The position numbers were made by a program, and so were the translations under genes. Of a DNA stretch of 32,349 bases, positions 25,484 through 31,527 are shown in pieces. Position 1 is the stretch's first letter. Each line of letters opens with the position of its first letter. This DNA is from Euzebyales bacterium (GTDB lineage: Bacteria; Actinomycetota; Nitriliruptoria; Euzebyales; JAHELV01): positions 1 to 32,349 of the forward strand of contig DATHVN010000035.1 in the NCBI GenBank assembly GCA_035461305.1. Reading direction: 5' to 3'. The notes under the pieces were generated by a model. The model was given only the letters and a program-made list of their open reading frames with translations, did not search any database and was not told where the DNA came from.

Positions 25484-25524
25484 GCGATTCGGGCCGCTGT
25501 AGGCCGCTGACCAGCGACGACGCA
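25484..25524. other. Probable left junction of the mobile element (attL side)
   Basis: The integrase stop lies 41 bases from the infA stop, so the attachment core is expected in this gap or in the 3' end of infA. A short direct repeat GGCCGCTG occurs at 25492-25499 and 25503-25510. The matching attR lies outside the window, so the core cannot be defined. Placement is inference. Confidence 0.4.
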
Positions 25525-26646
25525 TCACGCACCACCCGCCTCGGCCCACGCCTGGCCCACAGCAGCGCCGAACGCGCCGTCGATGACCTCACGGGCGCGC
25601 TCGTCGTCGTCGGGCATCAGGTGCGTGTACACGTGCAGCGTGAACGACGCGCTCTCGTGGCCGAGGTAGTCCGCGACGGCGCGGATCGACACGCCCTCCG
25701 CGAGCAGCACCGATGCGTACGTGTGGCGCAGCGCGTGCATGCCGTTGTCCCGCGTCGGCTCGAGCCCGGCCGCCACGACGGCGGGCTTCCACACCCGGTC
25801 GTTGAAGCTGCCGCGGTTGATCGGCCCGCCGACCGTGTTCGTGAACACGAGGTCCCCGCCCTCGGCCGGGTGGACGCGCAGGTGCTCCGACACGGCCGCG
25901 GCGACGGTGTCCGACAGCGGCACGCTGCGGGTCTTCCCGCGCTTGGGCGGCGCGAACACCACGCCCTGACCAGTGATGTGCTTGACCTGCTGGCGGACGT
26001 CGAGGCGACGGCCGAGGAAGTCGACGTCGGTCACCCGCAGACCGAAAACCTCGCCCTGCCGCAGCCCCGCGCCGGACGCCACGACCGCGGTCGCGCGGTA
26101 CCTGGCCGGCATCGCCGCGACGGCTGCGGCGACCTGCTCGACCGTCCACGGCCGCACCTTCGGGCGGGTCACCTTCGGCGCGGACACGGCACGCGACCGG
26201 CACGGGTTCGTCATGATCAGCCCGTCCTCGACGGCGGCGCCGAGGATCGCCGAAAGCGTCGCCAGCAGCAGCCGCACATAGGACGGCGCGAGGTCGCGGG
26301 ACGCGCTGGCGACCCACGCCTGCACGGTCGACGGTCGGATGCCGCGCAGCTCGCCGTCGCCGAACGCCGGCAGCAGGTGCGCGTGCAACCGCGACGCGGT
26401 GCCCTCGCGGGTCTTGGCGTCGAACACCTGTGATGCGAGCCACTGCTCCGCGAACGCCGCGAACGTGACCTTGCCGGCCGCGGGGTCGATCCACCGGCCG
26501 CGGAGCTTGTCGGCCTCGACGGTCGTGAGGAACCGTTGCGCGTCGCTCTTGCGCGCGAACGACCTAGACCGCGATCGGCCGGACGGGTCGCGGTAGCGGG
26601 CTTCCCACGGCTTCGGACGTCCCGGACGCTTGCGGATCGTCGCCAT
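25525..26646 (-). CDS. Tyrosine site-specific integrase
   Basis: This 373-residue recombinase has an N-terminal arm-type DNA-binding part (PWEARYRDPSGRSRSRSFARKSDAQRFL), a SAM-like core-binding domain (about 58-150) and a catalytic domain. Catalytic residues are visible: Arg196 in GAGLRQGEVFGLR, Lys in PPKRGKTRSVPL, His304 and Arg307 in HALRHTYAS, His330 in LGHES and the nucleophile Tyr340 in HVYTHLMP. It inserts and excises the element at its att sites. The ATG at 26646 overlaps the repressor gene's stop by one base (TGATG); a GTG directly before it is possible. It points towards infA, which marks the element's left end. Confidence 0.95.
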   Translation of the reverse strand: MATIRKRPGRPKPWEARYRDPSGRSRSRSFARKSDAQRFLTTVEADKLRGRWIDPAAGKVTFAAFAEQWLASQVFDAKTREGTASRLHAHLLPAFGDGELRGIRPSTVQAWVASASRDLAPSYVRLLLATLSAILGAAVEDGLIMTNPCRSRAVSAPKVTRPKVRPWTVEQVAAAVAAMPARYRATAVVASGAGLRQGEVFGLRVTDVDFLGRRLDVRQQVKHITGQGVVFAPPKRGKTRSVPLSDTVAAAVSEHLRVHPAEGGDLVFTNTVGGPINRGSFNDRVWKPAVVAAGLEPTRDNGMHALRHTYASVLLAEGVSIRAVADYLGHESASFTLHVYTHLMPDDDERAREVIDGAFGAAVGQAWAEAGGA

Positions 26647-27065
26647 CACTCGTCCTCCGCGGCGGCGGACACGGTCGGCGCCGGAGCGGCGGCGGCCGCG
26701 TCCGCTGTGACCGCGCCGACGGCGGCGCCGCTGCGGACCACCGTCACCGGCAACGCCGTGTCGACCTCGACCGCCGTCCCCACCCGCCGGACGACGAACC
26801 CGTCACCGACCGCGTCGTCGTCCATCCCGAGCAGATACCCGGGGGATACCCCCAACGCCGCGGCGAGCACGAACACCTCGTCGACCGTGACCGACCGCCG
26901 ACGACCGGACTCGATGTTCGCGATCACGTCACGGTTGAGCTCGGGCATCCCAAGCGCGGCGCAACGCTCCGCCAACCCGGCCGCGGACAGCTTCGGAACC
27001 ATCCCGTCGCGGACCTCACGGACACGCTCGGCGACCACCCGCGACGGCGTCCTCTCCTGTGTCAT
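26646..27065 (-). CDS. XRE-family repressor-like regulator
   Basis: This 139-residue protein has a lambda-repressor-type helix-turn-helix (about 8-80): VVAERVREVRDG, LAERCAALGM, NRDVIANIESGRR and TVDEVFVLAAALGVSPGYLLG. The C-terminal part is short, hydrophobic and Ala/Pro-rich, with no autocleavage (Ser/Lys) motif seen, so a LexA-type SOS response is not indicated. It probably represses the divergent plus-strand early genes. The ATG at 27065 is eight bases from a -10-like TACGGT, so its mRNA may be nearly leaderless. It is translationally coupled to the integrase gene. Confidence 0.87.
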   Translation of the reverse strand: MTQERTPSRVVAERVREVRDGMVPKLSAAGLAERCAALGMPELNRDVIANIESGRRRSVTVDEVFVLAAALGVSPGYLLGMDDDAVGDGFVVRRVGTAVEVDTALPVTVVRSGAAVGAVTADAAAAAPAPTVSAAAEDE

Positions 27066-27162
27066 ACCGACGCACCGTACCCGCATCCTTGACATGAAGC
27101 AAGGGACGATGGCAAACTCCGGCTGTGTCACAGAAATGTAACTCATCCGACAGGGAGACACA
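27066..27162. promoter_or_regulatory. Divergent promoter/operator region of the element
   Basis: Minus-strand promoter: TTGCTT (plus 27097-27102), 17-nt spacer, TACGGT (plus 27074-27079). Plus-strand promoter: TTGACA (27089-27094), 18-nt spacer, weak CAAACT (27113-27118). The two overlap back to back. Inverted arms TGTGTC (27124-27129) and GACACA (27157-27162) end at the plus-strand ATG and could be a repressor site. The AGGGAG ribosome site for the next gene overlaps the right arm. Such a layout is usual for a lysogeny switch. All inferred from sequence pattern. Confidence 0.6.
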
Positions 27163-27360
27163 ATGAGCGCGGACACCGAGCGGCTACTGACCATCCAGGA
27201 GGTCGCCGACATGATCGCCGTGCCGGTCGCCACCCTCTACCAGTGGCGCAGCCGCGGCGGCGGACCCGTCGGCATGCGGATCGGCCGGCACGTCCGCTAC
27301 GACCCCGCCGACGTCCGCGCCTGGCTCGACCAGCGGCGCGACCCCCGGCCCGCGGCGTGA
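27163..27360 (+). CDS. AlpA/excisionase-like helix-turn-helix protein
   Basis: This 65-residue protein is a stand-alone MerR-type winged helix-turn-helix: RLLTIQEVADMIAVPVATLYQWRSRGGGPVGMRIGRHVRYDPADVRAWLDQRR. The full domain matches the HTH_17 / excisionase family found in phages, satellites and integrative elements. It may act as an excisionase with the integrase or as an early activator like AlpA. It is the first plus-strand gene after the divergent promoter. AGGGAG lies five bases before its ATG. Confidence 0.88.
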   Translation: MSADTERLLTIQEVADMIAVPVATLYQWRSRGGGPVGMRIGRHVRYDPADVRAWLDQRRDPRPAA

Positions 27361-27401: not shown

Positions 27402-27432
27402 AGGTCAAATCTCCGCAGGCAGTGGAGACGTG

Positions 27433-28311
27433 ATGCATCGCAAGCGTACCCGGACTGACGGCGCGGCCGCGCTACATGACGCGGCCGTGGACTACGCCGC
27501 GGCTGGCTGGCAGGTCTTCCCGCTCTCCACCCGCGGCGGACGCAAAGCGCCATTGTTTCCATCCCCGCACGACGGACCGGGCCACGGATGCCATGGCCAG
27601 TGCGGCCGCCTGGGACACGGCTTCTACGACGCGACCAGCGACCCCGACACGGTGTCGCAGTGGTGGACGCGCCACCCGAACGCGGTCATCGGCGGCCGCA
27701 TCGCGCATCACCTGCTCGTCCTCGACGTCGACCGCCACGGCGGCGGCGAAGACACCCTCCAGTTCTTCGAGGCCGCCTACCACCCGCTGCCCGCCACGCT
27801 CACCTGCTACTCAGGGCGGGGCGACGGCGGCCGGCACCTGTACTGGCTGCGCCCGCCGACCCCCGGGTGGCGGCTGTCCGGCGCGAAACTCCGGCCCGGC
27901 ATCGACCTGATCCACCACACGCTGCGCTACGTGGTGCTGCCACCGTCGTCGCACCCGAAGACCGGGCAGCCGTACTGGTGGGACGACCCCACCGTCACGC
28001 CGGCCGAACCGCCCGCGTGGCTCGCAGCGCTCGTCACACCCCCACGCTCCCAACCGGTGTCGACCTTCACCCGCACCGCGTCGAACGGCGTAGCCGCCCT
28101 CGTGGGCCACGTGCGGCGCCTGTCACCGGAGGAGGGCACCGGCCGGCACGACACGGTGCTGTGGGCGCTGTGCGAGGCATACGAGGCCGGCGCCGGCGAA
28201 GCGGACATCGAGGCGATCTGCCAGGCCGCCGTGTCGGTCGGCAAGCCACGCCACGAGGTAGACGCGATGCGCGCCTGGGCGGCCGCCAAGTTCGTCGGAG
28301 GTACGCCGTGA
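27433..28311 (+). CDS. Bifunctional DNA primase/polymerase (prim-pol)
   Basis: This 292-residue protein has an archaeo-eukaryotic-type prim-pol domain. Motif I is LLVLDVDRHGG (Asp98, Asp100), motif II SGRGDGGRHLYW (127-138) and RYVVLPPSSHPKTGQPYWW matches the third conserved region. Early residues QVFPLSTRGGRKAP are the family's usual opening. A cluster HGCHGQCGRLGHG (51-63) could bind zinc. The C-terminal 70 residues are helical. It should synthesise primers for the element's replication. GGAG lies five bases before the ATG at 27433. The helicase gene overlaps its end by GTGA, so the two form one replication module. Confidence 0.9.
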   Translation: MHRKRTRTDGAAALHDAAVDYAAAGWQVFPLSTRGGRKAPLFPSPHDGPGHGCHGQCGRLGHGFYDATSDPDTVSQWWTRHPNAVIGGRIAHHLLVLDVDRHGGGEDTLQFFEAAYHPLPATLTCYSGRGDGGRHLYWLRPPTPGWRLSGAKLRPGIDLIHHTLRYVVLPPSSHPKTGQPYWWDDPTVTPAEPPAWLAALVTPPRSQPVSTFTRTASNGVAALVGHVRRLSPEEGTGRHDTVLWALCEAYEAGAGEADIEAICQAAVSVGKPRHEVDAMRAWAAAKFVGGTP

Positions 28312-29726
28312 CCGACGTGCCACCCGTGCCGGCACCGTCCGACCGTCACCTCCACGCCGTCGTCGACGAGCCCGACCCGCTGCCCCGCGAACCGTGGACC
28401 GAATTGGGCTACGCGCACCGGCTGATCTGCGTCTACGGCGACCGGCTCCGCTACGTGCCCACATGGCGCCGATGGCTCGTGTGGGACGGCACCCGCTGGG
28501 TGCACGACACCACCGGCCAAGTCGCCCGCTGGATGAAGATCACCGCGAGGCGGCTCACCAATGCCGCCTACGACATCAAGGATGCCGACAAGCGCCGCGC
28601 TGCATTGCGGACGGCGCGACGCGGAGAATCATCCGCCGGCGTCAACGGCGCGCTCGCCTTGGCCAGCACCGAGGACGGCGTCGCCATCGCCCCTGACCAG
28701 CTCGACGCCGACCCGTTCCTGCTCAACTGCGTCAACGGGACGCTCGACCTGCGCACGATGGAGCTACGCGACCACGACCCCGCCGACCTGCTCACCAAGA
28801 TCACGGGCGCCGCATACCGCCCGGACACCAAGGGCACCAAGTTCGCCGCGTTCCTCGCGAAGGTCCAGCCCAAGGAGGACATGCGGAAGTTCCTCGCGCG
28901 GCTCATCGGGCACGCGCTCGAGGGCCGGGTGGTCGAGCACTTGCTGCCGATCTTCCACGGGTCCGGCGGCAACGGCAAAGGCACGTTCGTCGAGGCCACC
29001 CTGTACGCGCTGGGTGACTACGCCGACGCTGCAGACCCCGACCTACTGACCGCTCGTACGTTCGACGCGCATCCCACCGGCGTTGCTGATCTGTTCGGCC
29101 GCCGCCTGGCGGTGCTCCACGAGAGCGACCAAGGCCGCCAGCTCGCCGAGGGCACCGTGAAGCGGTTGACCGGCGGCGACCGGGTCAAGGCCCGCCGGAT
29201 GCGCGAGGACTTCTGGCACTTCAACCCGTCCCACACGTTCCTGATGCTGACGAACCACAAGCCGATCGTCACCGGCACCGACGAGGGCATCTGGCGTCGC
29301 ATCCGGCTCGTCCCCTGGGACGTCGTCATCCCCACCGAGGAGCAGGACACCGAGCTAGGCGACGCACTGCGGCTCGAGGCGGACGCCGTGCTCGCGTGGC
29401 TGGTCGACGGCTACCGCGACTGGCGCGACCACGGACTCAACGACCCGAAGGTCGTCACTGACGCCACCGATGCCTACCGCACCGAGTCCGATGCGGTCGG
29501 TCGGTTCCTCGAGGACCGGTGTCTACTCAAGGACACGTGCACAGTGCGGTCGTCGGTTCTGTTCGCCGCATGGCAGCGGTGGGCCGACCGGGAAGGCATG
29601 ACCGACCCGAAGACAAATAAGGCGTTCTCCGCCGTGCTCGAGAACCGCGGTCACGACAAGAACCGGACGAACGCCGGGGCAGTGTGGCAAGGGATAGGTC
29701 TCGTGGTCGAGGATGACGCTCCATGA
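28308..29726 (+). CDS. P4-type phage/plasmid replicative helicase (SF3, D5-like)
   Basis: This 472-residue protein has the D5_N region (LLNCVNGTLDLRT, 138-150) and a superfamily 3 helicase domain. Walker A is GSGGNGKGT (218-226). The Walker B region is LAVLHESDQG (267-276), with Glu-Ser where Asp-Glu or Glu-Glu is common. The sensor-like motif is FLMLTNHKP (311-319) and GIWRRIRLVPW (327-337) gives the arginine finger. A C-terminal DUF-like tail contains RTESDAVGRFLEDRC. In P4 and satellites this helicase opens the origin, and here an iteron array lies just downstream. The start GTG is inside the prim-pol stop codon. Confidence 0.92.
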   Translation: MTDVPPVPAPSDRHLHAVVDEPDPLPREPWTELGYAHRLICVYGDRLRYVPTWRRWLVWDGTRWVHDTTGQVARWMKITARRLTNAAYDIKDADKRRAALRTARRGESSAGVNGALALASTEDGVAIAPDQLDADPFLLNCVNGTLDLRTMELRDHDPADLLTKITGAAYRPDTKGTKFAAFLAKVQPKEDMRKFLARLIGHALEGRVVEHLLPIFHGSGGNGKGTFVEATLYALGDYADAADPDLLTARTFDAHPTGVADLFGRRLAVLHESDQGRQLAEGTVKRLTGGDRVKARRMREDFWHFNPSHTFLMLTNHKPIVTGTDEGIWRRIRLVPWDVVIPTEEQDTELGDALRLEADAVLAWLVDGYRDWRDHGLNDPKVVTDATDAYRTESDAVGRFLEDRCLLKDTCTVRSSVLFAAWQRWADREGMTDPKTNKAFSAVLENRGHDKNRTNAGAVWQGIGLVVEDDAP

Positions 29727-29755
29727 TTGCCGCAATACGCACGGTAGGAAAAGTG

Positions 29756-29856
29756 GTGACGGTGACGGGTGTGACGGTCTATCACCTTTGCGCCCACACG
29801 CGTAGAGAACAAAGCTCTAGACCCGTCACACCCGTCACACTCGTCACACCCGTCAC
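29756..29856. repeat. Iteron array in both orientations; candidate replication origin
   Basis: Right side: four 9-bp units at 29821, 29830, 29839 and 29848, three ACCCGTCAC and one ACTCGTCAC. Left side: the reverse complement, GTGACGGGT at 29762-29770 and GTGACGGTC at 29771-29779, with a partial GTGACG at 29756. The two sets form an inverted repeat of about 20 bp (29761-29781 and 29818-29838, one extra base). The central 40 bases are less GC-rich and hold a hairpin TAGAG-N7-CTCTA (29803-29819). It sits between the helicase gene and the next gene. The origin role is inference. Confidence 0.72.
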
Positions 29857-29877
29857 CCTCGACACACGGGTGTACGC

Positions 29878-30426
29878 ATGAACCGCGCCGACCGTCGCCG
29901 CCTCGCACGCAAAGTCCGGCGCGTCGCCGCTGGCACCGACACCCTCACCCGGTCCGAGCGTCACCAGCTCAACGCCGTGCTGCGTGAGGCGAGCGCGACG
30001 CTGCCCGTCCACATCCGCGACCAGGCCGACGCCGCCGTCGAGCAGATCGCCGCCGGCACGCGAGCGATCATCGACGAGTTCGGGTTCACACCTGCCCACA
30101 CCCGTAGCCCCAAGCTCACCAGGCCGATCGACCGGGTCATCACCCGGATGCTGACCGGCGACTGCCGGACCTGCCGGCACGTGACCGCCACCGCGCCCCA
30201 GCCGCTGTCCGTGTGCCTGTGGGATGACCCGCCGGTGTTCCGGTGCCGTCGCTGCATCCCCGACGACGCCGCCCTCACCGACGAGGAGGATCGCACGTGC
30301 GATCTGTGCCGTGTGGACACTGCGGGCGACGGGATCTTCCCGGCGTTCACGACGGTCGGCGCGATAACCATCGCCTATGGCGCCTGCCACGACTGCCACG
30401 ACGAGATCGAGGAGGCCGCAGCGTGA
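29878..30426 (+). CDS. Cys-rich zinc-binding protein of unknown function
   Basis: This 182-residue protein has a basic, helical N-terminus (MNRADRRRLARKVRRVAAG) and a second half with several CxxC pairs: Cys96/Cys99, Cys123/Cys126, Cys141/Cys144 and Cys170/Cys173, plus Cys113. That suggests two or more zinc sites. I do not recognise the family. It may bind nucleic acid, or be a small regulator of the element. It starts directly after the iteron array, and no good ribosome site precedes it. The next small gene overlaps its stop by GTGA. Confidence 0.7.
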   Translation: MNRADRRRLARKVRRVAAGTDTLTRSERHQLNAVLREASATLPVHIRDQADAAVEQIAAGTRAIIDEFGFTPAHTRSPKLTRPIDRVITRMLTGDCRTCRHVTATAPQPLSVCLWDDPPVFRCRRCIPDDAALTDEEDRTCDLCRVDTAGDGIFPAFTTVGAITIAYGACHDCHDEIEEAAA

Positions 30427-30674
30427 CCTCGACACCGCCCGCATGGATCACCCGGCTCCACCAAGCCGAAGCCCGCCGCGGCGAACGGTGCCGACGGTGC
30501 GGCCACCGCAAGGTGATCGACACCGAACAGGGTCCGCACTGCGCACAGCACGCCGCTTCCACCGCCGATCGTGCGCCGCGAACACGACGATCACGACCTC
30601 GAGCACGACGAGGACGGACTCGATGCCGCATAAGCCCATGTCGGTGTGTGCCCAGCCGGGCTGTCCGACCCTGA
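30423..30674 (+). CDS. Small Cys-rich ORF
   Basis: This 83-residue frame opens at a GTG inside the stop of the previous gene (GTGA). The first 45 residues look like a protein: TPPAWITRLHQAEARRGERCRRCGHRKVIDTEQGPHCAQHAA, with CxxC and CxxH as a zinc knuckle. After that the frame is Arg-rich and lower in quality, and it overlaps the HNH gene by 52 nt. It is either a real small zinc protein or a frame whose end is coincidental. Confidence 0.45.
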   Translation: MTSTPPAWITRLHQAEARRGERCRRCGHRKVIDTEQGPHCAQHAASTADRAPRTRRSRPRARRGRTRCRISPCRCVPSRAVRP

Positions 30675-30991
30675 CCCGCTCGGCCCGCTGCGACGAGCAC
30701 AAGCCGACTGACGACCGGCCGTCCGCGCACCGCCGGGGCTACGACCGGGCGCATCGACGTCGCCGCGAACACACCCCGCGCACACCGTGCGTCGACTGCG
30801 GCCAGCCATGGCAGCCAGGCATGCACCTGGACCACGTCGACGGCAACGTGCGCAACAACGACCCGGCCAACCTCGTGTGGAGAGACGCGTCGTGTCACGC
30901 GATCAAGACAGCCGCCCGGGACGGGTCGTTCGGCCGGCCACGGGTCAACCGACGAGACGACGACCCGCCGCCCGGCCCGGTGTTCGCATGA
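30623..30991 (+). CDS. HNH endonuclease
   Basis: This 122-residue protein has an N-terminal zinc knuckle (CAQPGCPTLTRSARCDEH) and an HNH nuclease domain: CVDCGQPWQPGMHLDHVDGNVRNNDPANLVWRDASCHAIKT. The His-Asp pair in LDHVDG, the Asn in NDPANLVW and the final CHAIKT His match the family. Phage HNH enzymes next to terminase genes assist cutting of packaged DNA at cos sites. Here the small terminase gene follows by 143 nt. The ATG at 30623 has GAGG nine bases upstream; ATG at 30638 is a second option. Confidence 0.85.
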   Translation: MPHKPMSVCAQPGCPTLTRSARCDEHKPTDDRPSAHRRGYDRAHRRRREHTPRTPCVDCGQPWQPGMHLDHVDGNVRNNDPANLVWRDASCHAIKTAARDGSFGRPRVNRRDDDPPPGPVFA

Positions 30992-31134: not shown

Positions 31135-31527
31135 GTGACCAGGTCGTCCCAGCCGTCCCCGCCGTCGAACCTAACGCGTCAGGGCCGGGCTCTGTGGCGC
31201 AAGGTGACCGGAGCCTACGAGTTGGAGGACCACGAACTGGTGCTGCTGGCGCAGGCGTGCCACACCGTGGACGTGATCGACCAGCTCGAGACGGCCATCG
31301 CGAACGACGGGGTGATCGCTGAGGGGTCCCGCGGTCAGAAGGTGACGCATCCGGCCGTCGACGAGATACGCCTACAGCGGGTGACTTTGGCGCGGTTGCT
31401 GGCCGCCCTGGCGTTGCCGGACAGTGAGGGTGGCCGGACGGTCGCGACGGGCTATCAGGGCCGGTCTGCGGCAGGCCACCGGCAGCGGTGGGCGAACGTC
31501 AGGGAGATGAAGCGCAGTGGCGCGTAG
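31135..31527 (+). CDS. P27-family small terminase subunit
   Basis: This 130-residue protein matches the P27 family: SNLTRQGRALWRKVTGAYELEDHELVLLAQACHTVDVIDQLETAIANDGVIAEGSRGQKVTHPAVDEIRLQRVTLARLLAALALP. Small terminases form rings that bind the cos or pac site and feed DNA to the large subunit. The GTG at 31135 has GGAG five bases upstream and gives the usual family length of about 100-150 residues. The large terminase is not the next gene, which is unusual; it may lie beyond the window. Confidence 0.9.
   Translation: MTRSSQPSPPSNLTRQGRALWRKVTGAYELEDHELVLLAQACHTVDVIDQLETAIANDGVIAEGSRGQKVTHPAVDEIRLQRVTLARLLAALALPDSEGGRTVATGYQGRSAAGHRQRWANVREMKRSGA

Follow-up and report, generated by a model that had tools for sequence, protein, structure and literature searches.

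A predicted replication origin with mirrored 9-bp iterons behind the D5-type helicase gene of a Euzebyales prophage-like element

The replication origins of phage-inducible chromosomal islands (PICIs) and Staphylococcus aureus pathogenicity islands (SaPIs) contain two iteron sets, one on each side of a melting region, directly 3' of rep, an organisation stated to be unique to PICIs and to occur in no other bacterial replicon (PMC6092414). These islands share a gene order, with int and the repressor gene running leftward and xis/AlpA, pri, rep and ori rightward, sometimes followed by terS, and the origin of EcCICFT073 is supported by a deletion experiment (PMC6092414). In the staphylococcal cassette chromosome SCCmec, the isolated C-terminal domain of Cch2, a D5-type relative, binds a putative origin downstream of its own gene, for which direct repeats are required (PMC7581432). 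The plasmid pRN1, which encodes a protein with Prim-Pol, superfamily 3 (SF3) helicase and winged-helix parts, depends on a stem of 21 nt and a loop of 58 nt that lie just past orf904, and assembly on this stem-loop has been proposed (PMC4234260); the helicase-primase alpha of phage P4 binds origin repeats through its C-terminal winged helix (summarised in PMC4234260). Here we analyse a 32,349-nt stretch of DNA from a Euzebyales bacterium (contig DATHVN010000035.1, hereafter the window) that carries an integrated, prophage-like element. On the evidence of its sequence and of these parallels, the segment 29754-29865, just past the gene for a D5-type helicase, is very probably a replication origin of the SaPI/PICI kind.

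The array consists of two inverted arms of 9-bp units that face each other across a core (Table 1). An initial annotation had located it at 29756-29856, directly after the Prim-Pol and helicase genes, with four tandem units facing at least two inverted ones. These coordinates are correct, the array starts 30 bp past the helicase stop (29726), and we count three inverted cores opposite the four tandem units. Seven copies of CGTCAC/GTGACG fall in about 100 bp, whereas no stretch of 115 bp held more than four when the whole window was shuffled 200 times with a third-order Markov model. The guanine-cytosine (GC) content of the core, 51%, is below that of the usual GC-rich coding DNA of the window, yet the core is not AT-rich. 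A TAGAG/CTCTA hairpin noted in the initial annotation is present in the core but was not found in relatives, and the hairpin reading is not supported.

Table 1. Features of the array and of the element around it, in window coordinates. L numbers designate other loci; HTH, helix-turn-helix; ORF, open reading frame.
Feature	Position	Strand	Remarks
Tyrosine integrase	25525-26649	-	Beside the 3' end of an infA-like (IF-1) gene
HTH_3 repressor-like regulator	26646-27068	-	Divergent from the replication genes
AlpA/excisionase-like HTH_17 protein	27163-27360	+	
Prim-Pol primase-polymerase	27430-28311	+	PF09250; separate gene, just upstream of helicase
D5_N/DUF5906 helicase	28308-29726	+	P4-type, SF3; 472 aa; proposed initiator
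Left iteron arm	29754-29779	+	Three GTGACG-type units aimed at the core
Left-arm unit GTGACG	29756-29761		
Left-arm unit GTGACGGGT	29762-29770		
Left-arm unit GTGACGGTC	29771-29779		
Core between arms	29778-29820		43 bp, 51% GC; proposed melting/loading region
TCTATC box	29778-29783	+	Left core edge; also in L005, L006, L052 and L073; TTTATC in L053
CACACGCGTA	29795-29804	+	10-nt alternating purine-pyrimidine run in core; counterpart of the longer CG/CA tracts of relatives
Small core hairpin, TAGAG	29803-29807		
Small core hairpin, CTCTA	29815-29819		
Right iteron arm	29821-29856	+	Four tandem 9-bp units, inverted relative to the left arm
Right-arm units ACCCGTCAC	29821-29829, 29830-29838, 29848-29856		
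Right-arm unit ACTCGTCAC	29839-29847		
CCTCGACAC	29857-29865		Decayed fifth right-arm unit
ORF of unknown function	29878-30426	+	182 aa; first gene past the array; no homology to post-array genes of close relatives
HNH endonuclease	30623-30991	+	
Terminase small subunit	31138-31527	+	

Like the origins of SaPIbov1, SaPI5 and EcCICFT073, the array has iteron sets (three units left, four right) flanking a core directly 3' of the rep/helicase gene, and the gene order of the element is that of PICIs, with int and repressor on the left, xis/AlpA-pri-rep-ori on the right and the optional terS. It differs from them in that its core, with a short alternating run, is not plainly AT-rich, and in that its relatives include likely phages and a plasmid. 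SCCmec Cch2 shares a D5-type helicase and direct-repeat DNA downstream of the gene, whereas its primase is CCPol-MP and that of the window is a Prim-Pol. The crenarchaeal plasmid pRN1 has the same combination of Prim-Pol, SF3 helicase and winged helix and an essential inverted-repeat origin of about 100 bp just downstream. Unlike the window, it is archaeal and has primase and helicase fused, and its stem-loop is described without iterons, whereas the arms of the window are tandem direct repeats. The initial annotation had drawn a parallel with P4. Alpha is linked to origin repeats by a C-terminal winged helix, and a winged-helix-like C-terminus is also predicted in the window helicase. The P4 protein is a looser functional relative; among proven origins that of PICIs/SaPIs, with iteron sets flanking a melting region directly 3' of rep, comes closest. 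P4 has a bacterial-type (Toprim) primase, and the arrangement of its origin repeats and of a second cis region (crr) differs from that in the window.

Mirrored repeats lie past the helicase stop in all six close relatives. In L005 (an actinobacterial metagenome-assembled genome), L006, L052, L073 and L077 the helicase core is 70-79% identical to that of the window, and in L053 identity is 66% over the whole protein. The iteron word is the same in both arms within each close relative and different between elements, with GTGACGGGT in the window and L052, CTGACGGGT in L005, GTGAAGGGT in L006, ACGGAGGGT in L073 and GTGCATGGT in L077; in L053, a record with terminal repeats whose array was read across the joined ends, the iterons are an GTAGAGGGT/TGTGAGTGT pair. 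A core motif, TCTATC plus CGCCCACACGCGTrGG...AAGC...GAACC, is kept with variations in all of them but L077. Conserved 9-mers at the same place had been named in the initial annotation as a check on the origin reading: place, a period of about 9 nt, inward orientation and core motif are indeed conserved, whereas the sequence of the 9-mer varies from element to element and does so jointly in the two arms. Pattern searches of the DNA collection for the core turned up no second copy, and their one chance match lies inside a collagen-like gene.

The genes that follow the array are mostly unrelated among close relatives, so the helicase, not the next gene, is what the array accompanies. In L006 a weak Toprim-like region precedes the helicase (71%) in one fused protein, in place of the separate Prim-Pol of the window, yet the helicase and array type are kept. 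The array thus goes with the helicase and seems, as far as the sequences indicate, independent of primase type. The anatomy of the array, its conservation behind related helicases and the in-step change of iterons in both arms are directly visible in these loci, and the origin reading of the initial annotation gains support from an array beyond chance in a layout conserved behind related helicases. In L005 (4652), L006 (5898) and L084, the helicase stop codon TGA lies inside the first iteron (TGACGGGT, TGAAGGGT), so that the putative origin overlaps the gene end.

Because the arms are inverted, the array region folds strongly as a single strand (z = -5.7), and the arms remain largely complementary in close relatives. 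Both observations would also suit a stem-loop or cruciform origin of the type proposed for pRN1, in which the repeats would be incidental to arm pairing; pRN1 requires a stem-loop of about 100 bp located 54 bp past orf904, and a winged helix likewise forms the end of the orf904 protein (PMC4234260). A stem, however, does not need tandem direct repeats at a constant period in both arms. Among 37 non-redundant arrays the period was 9 in 25 of the left arms and 23 of the right, and the two arms had unequal periods in 7 arrays and unequal copy numbers in 18. Inward-pointing units numbered 208, against 29 in the opposite direction; moreover, some left-arm copies in L006 and L052 have no partner in the other arm. 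Since fixed-period direct repeats and unequal arms fit protein-binding repeats, not a stem alone, we infer that the fold is a consequence of inverted binding sites and regard a stem-loop origin as improbable. The published pRN1 stem-loop is of similar size and may itself represent two inverted binding arms.

An operator or attenuator of the next gene, or a terminator of the replication operon, is less probable again, and we give it very little credence. The next start codon follows 21 bp after the array and inverted repeats are typical of operators, but we found no promoter- or terminator-like site in the array region, where an Rfam search returned no family at gathering score and sub-threshold hairpin matches alone. 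The variable genes downstream of arrays that stay with the helicase speak against such a role, as does the lack of a second cluster of the CGTCAC/GTGACG unit anywhere in the window, including the divergent repressor/excisionase promoter region.

If the segment is an origin, its initiator would be the helicase encoded directly upstream, which matches PF08706 (D5_N, 2.5e-32) and DUF5906 (9e-12). A structural model built from eight sequences (predicted local distance difference test score, 79.9) found its best folds in the African swine fever virus PrimPol and poxvirus E5. In this model residues 396-461 are predicted to follow the winged-helix order H-E-H-H-E-E (helices 396-404, 415-428 and 437-446; strands 412-414, 450-454 and 457-461), which makes the C-terminus a winged-helix-like, putative DNA-binding domain. 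Through this domain the helicase would bind the 9-bp iterons of both arms, and one ring would assemble on each inverted arm. The two opposed rings, with the 43-bp core between them, would then melt the core and separate, and the neighbouring Prim-Pol would lay the primers. We infer binding, double-ring loading, melting and a bidirectional start from the SaPI/PICI, SCCmec and pRN1 systems.

To survey helicase loci more widely we used a paired-arm test, which looks for a tandem 8-mer pair (one mismatch allowed, period 8-13) and, 15-150 nt further on, for the same 8-mer again as a tandem pair on the opposite strand; a locus passes if the array starts within 400 nt past the helicase stop. Counting repeated 8-mers without spacing rules had not separated origins from background in GC-rich DNA, and the paired-arm test was used instead. 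In a first set of 51 loci from genomes, phages, plasmids and viral contigs, whose helicase cores are as little as about 26% identical, 20 passed, compared with 14 arrays in 303 kb elsewhere and 5 in 1020 shuffles. The test was devised after some of these loci had been viewed and was then run unchanged on 74 viral loci fetched later. Of these 31 passed, versus 5 arrays in 388 kb elsewhere (two overlapping the stop codon) and 1 in 740 shuffles, although many of the 74 come from one clade and their effective number is smaller. The region past the primase gene of EcCICFT073, our positive control, passed as well. Passing members include phage phi105, Acidithiobacillus phage AcaML1, mycobacteriophages Syra333 and Cheetobro, a Staphylococcus phage, a Lacticaseibacillus phage and the 13.5-kb plasmid of Streptomyces strain NBC_00104 (L049), which encodes a P4-family helicase. 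In the collection searched, 889 phage records hold a relative of the window helicase. A different placement occurs in the Thermaerobacter plasmid record NZ_CP037897 (L048), where a mirrored ATGTGAAC array lies upstream of the helicase gene, before an HTH gene (about 2805-2895).

Several results of this survey count against the origin reading or its extension. The strict test was failed by 31 of the 51 and 43 of the 74 helicase loci. Arrays are visible by eye in some of the failures (L012, L021, L025 and L041), and at other loci, such as some Arthrobacter and Microbacterium phages, the array seems truly absent. Similarity of the C-terminal domain correlated weakly with similarity of the iterons once corrected for the helicase core (partial Mantel r=0.16, p=0.028), a correlation too weak to name a recognition code linking winged helix to iteron sequence. 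The GC skew of the Streptomyces plasmid, the one plasmid profiled, did not switch at the array and was uninformative.

We also examined the composition of the cores. A run of alternating purines and pyrimidines (CG/CA) longer than shuffles of the same core allow was present in 19 of 39 non-redundant cores at p<0.05 and in 11 at p<0.01, a sample that contains two doubtful detections and in which related lineages supply several cases, so that fewer are independent. Control stretches of equal length just outside the arrays gave 2 of 36. The longest runs reach 18-25 nt (for example, CATGCGCGCACGCGCATG), while that of the window is weak (10 nt, p=0.043). Mid-core alternating tracts of 14-25 nt are seen in many putative origins, among them L089, L095, L099, L100, L137 and L138. 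Alternating purine-pyrimidine tracts are prone to the B-Z transition under negative supercoiling. A literature search on alternating tracts in such phage origins returned no relevant paper, which is weak evidence of novelty.

By itself the window array adds a further case to a known kind of origin; the part that could be new is a layout reaching well beyond PICIs, often with a CG-alternating core. We raise tentatively, as an idea somewhat short of even odds, that mirrored-iteron origins are general for replicons with D5-type (SF3, winged-helix) helicases among phages, satellites and plasmids of actinobacteria and other hosts. Under a constant layout the iteron word would drift with each helicase, the core would in many lineages be alternating (Z-DNA-prone, CG/CA) and not AT-rich, and the pRN1 stem-loop would be the same structure seen as a fold. 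The survey puts in question the published confinement of this origin organisation to PICIs (PMC6092414). It also offers a simple rule, by which inward-facing repeats of about 9 nt directly past the helicase stop predict origin and iterons in a sizeable share of these replicons, even where no origin has been studied, and it opens initiator-iteron specificity to testing by swaps of C-terminal domains or iterons.

The element starts next to the infA-like gene, which encodes an IF-1 domain, and is cut off by the contig end (32349) about 0.8 kb past terS. A search of the host genome with the large terminase of a relative, aimed at the missing right part, found nothing. L052, a 17-kb record (IMG/VR 3300037440_000302) with a helicase 68% identical to that of the window, also has genes for the large terminase, portal, major head protein and tail, a set expected of a small phage. 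Because the contig stops so soon after terS and this relative has terminase, portal, capsid and tail genes, the window element could equally be a small prophage or a satellite. The tape-measure-like protein of L052 (11069-12127) is just 352 aa long, which suggests a very small phage or a satellite with a short tail. L053 (IMG/VR 3300006175_000319), 16 kb long and, with its repeated ends, probably circular, encodes a tail tape-measure protein and a head protease together with an unassigned large ATPase-like ORF and a DUF2637 protein, a family also present on the Streptomyces plasmid; it is possibly a phage/plasmid mixture. Between the infA-like gene and the integrase lies a 22-bp sequence, CGCTGTAGGCCGCTGACCAGCG (25495-25516), which recurs in the same genome on contig C36 (78915-78936; L071 1501-1522), flanked there by a glutamine synthetase gene and, at the contig end, by a second and related integrase, and possibly represents one attachment (att)-like core serving two host genes.
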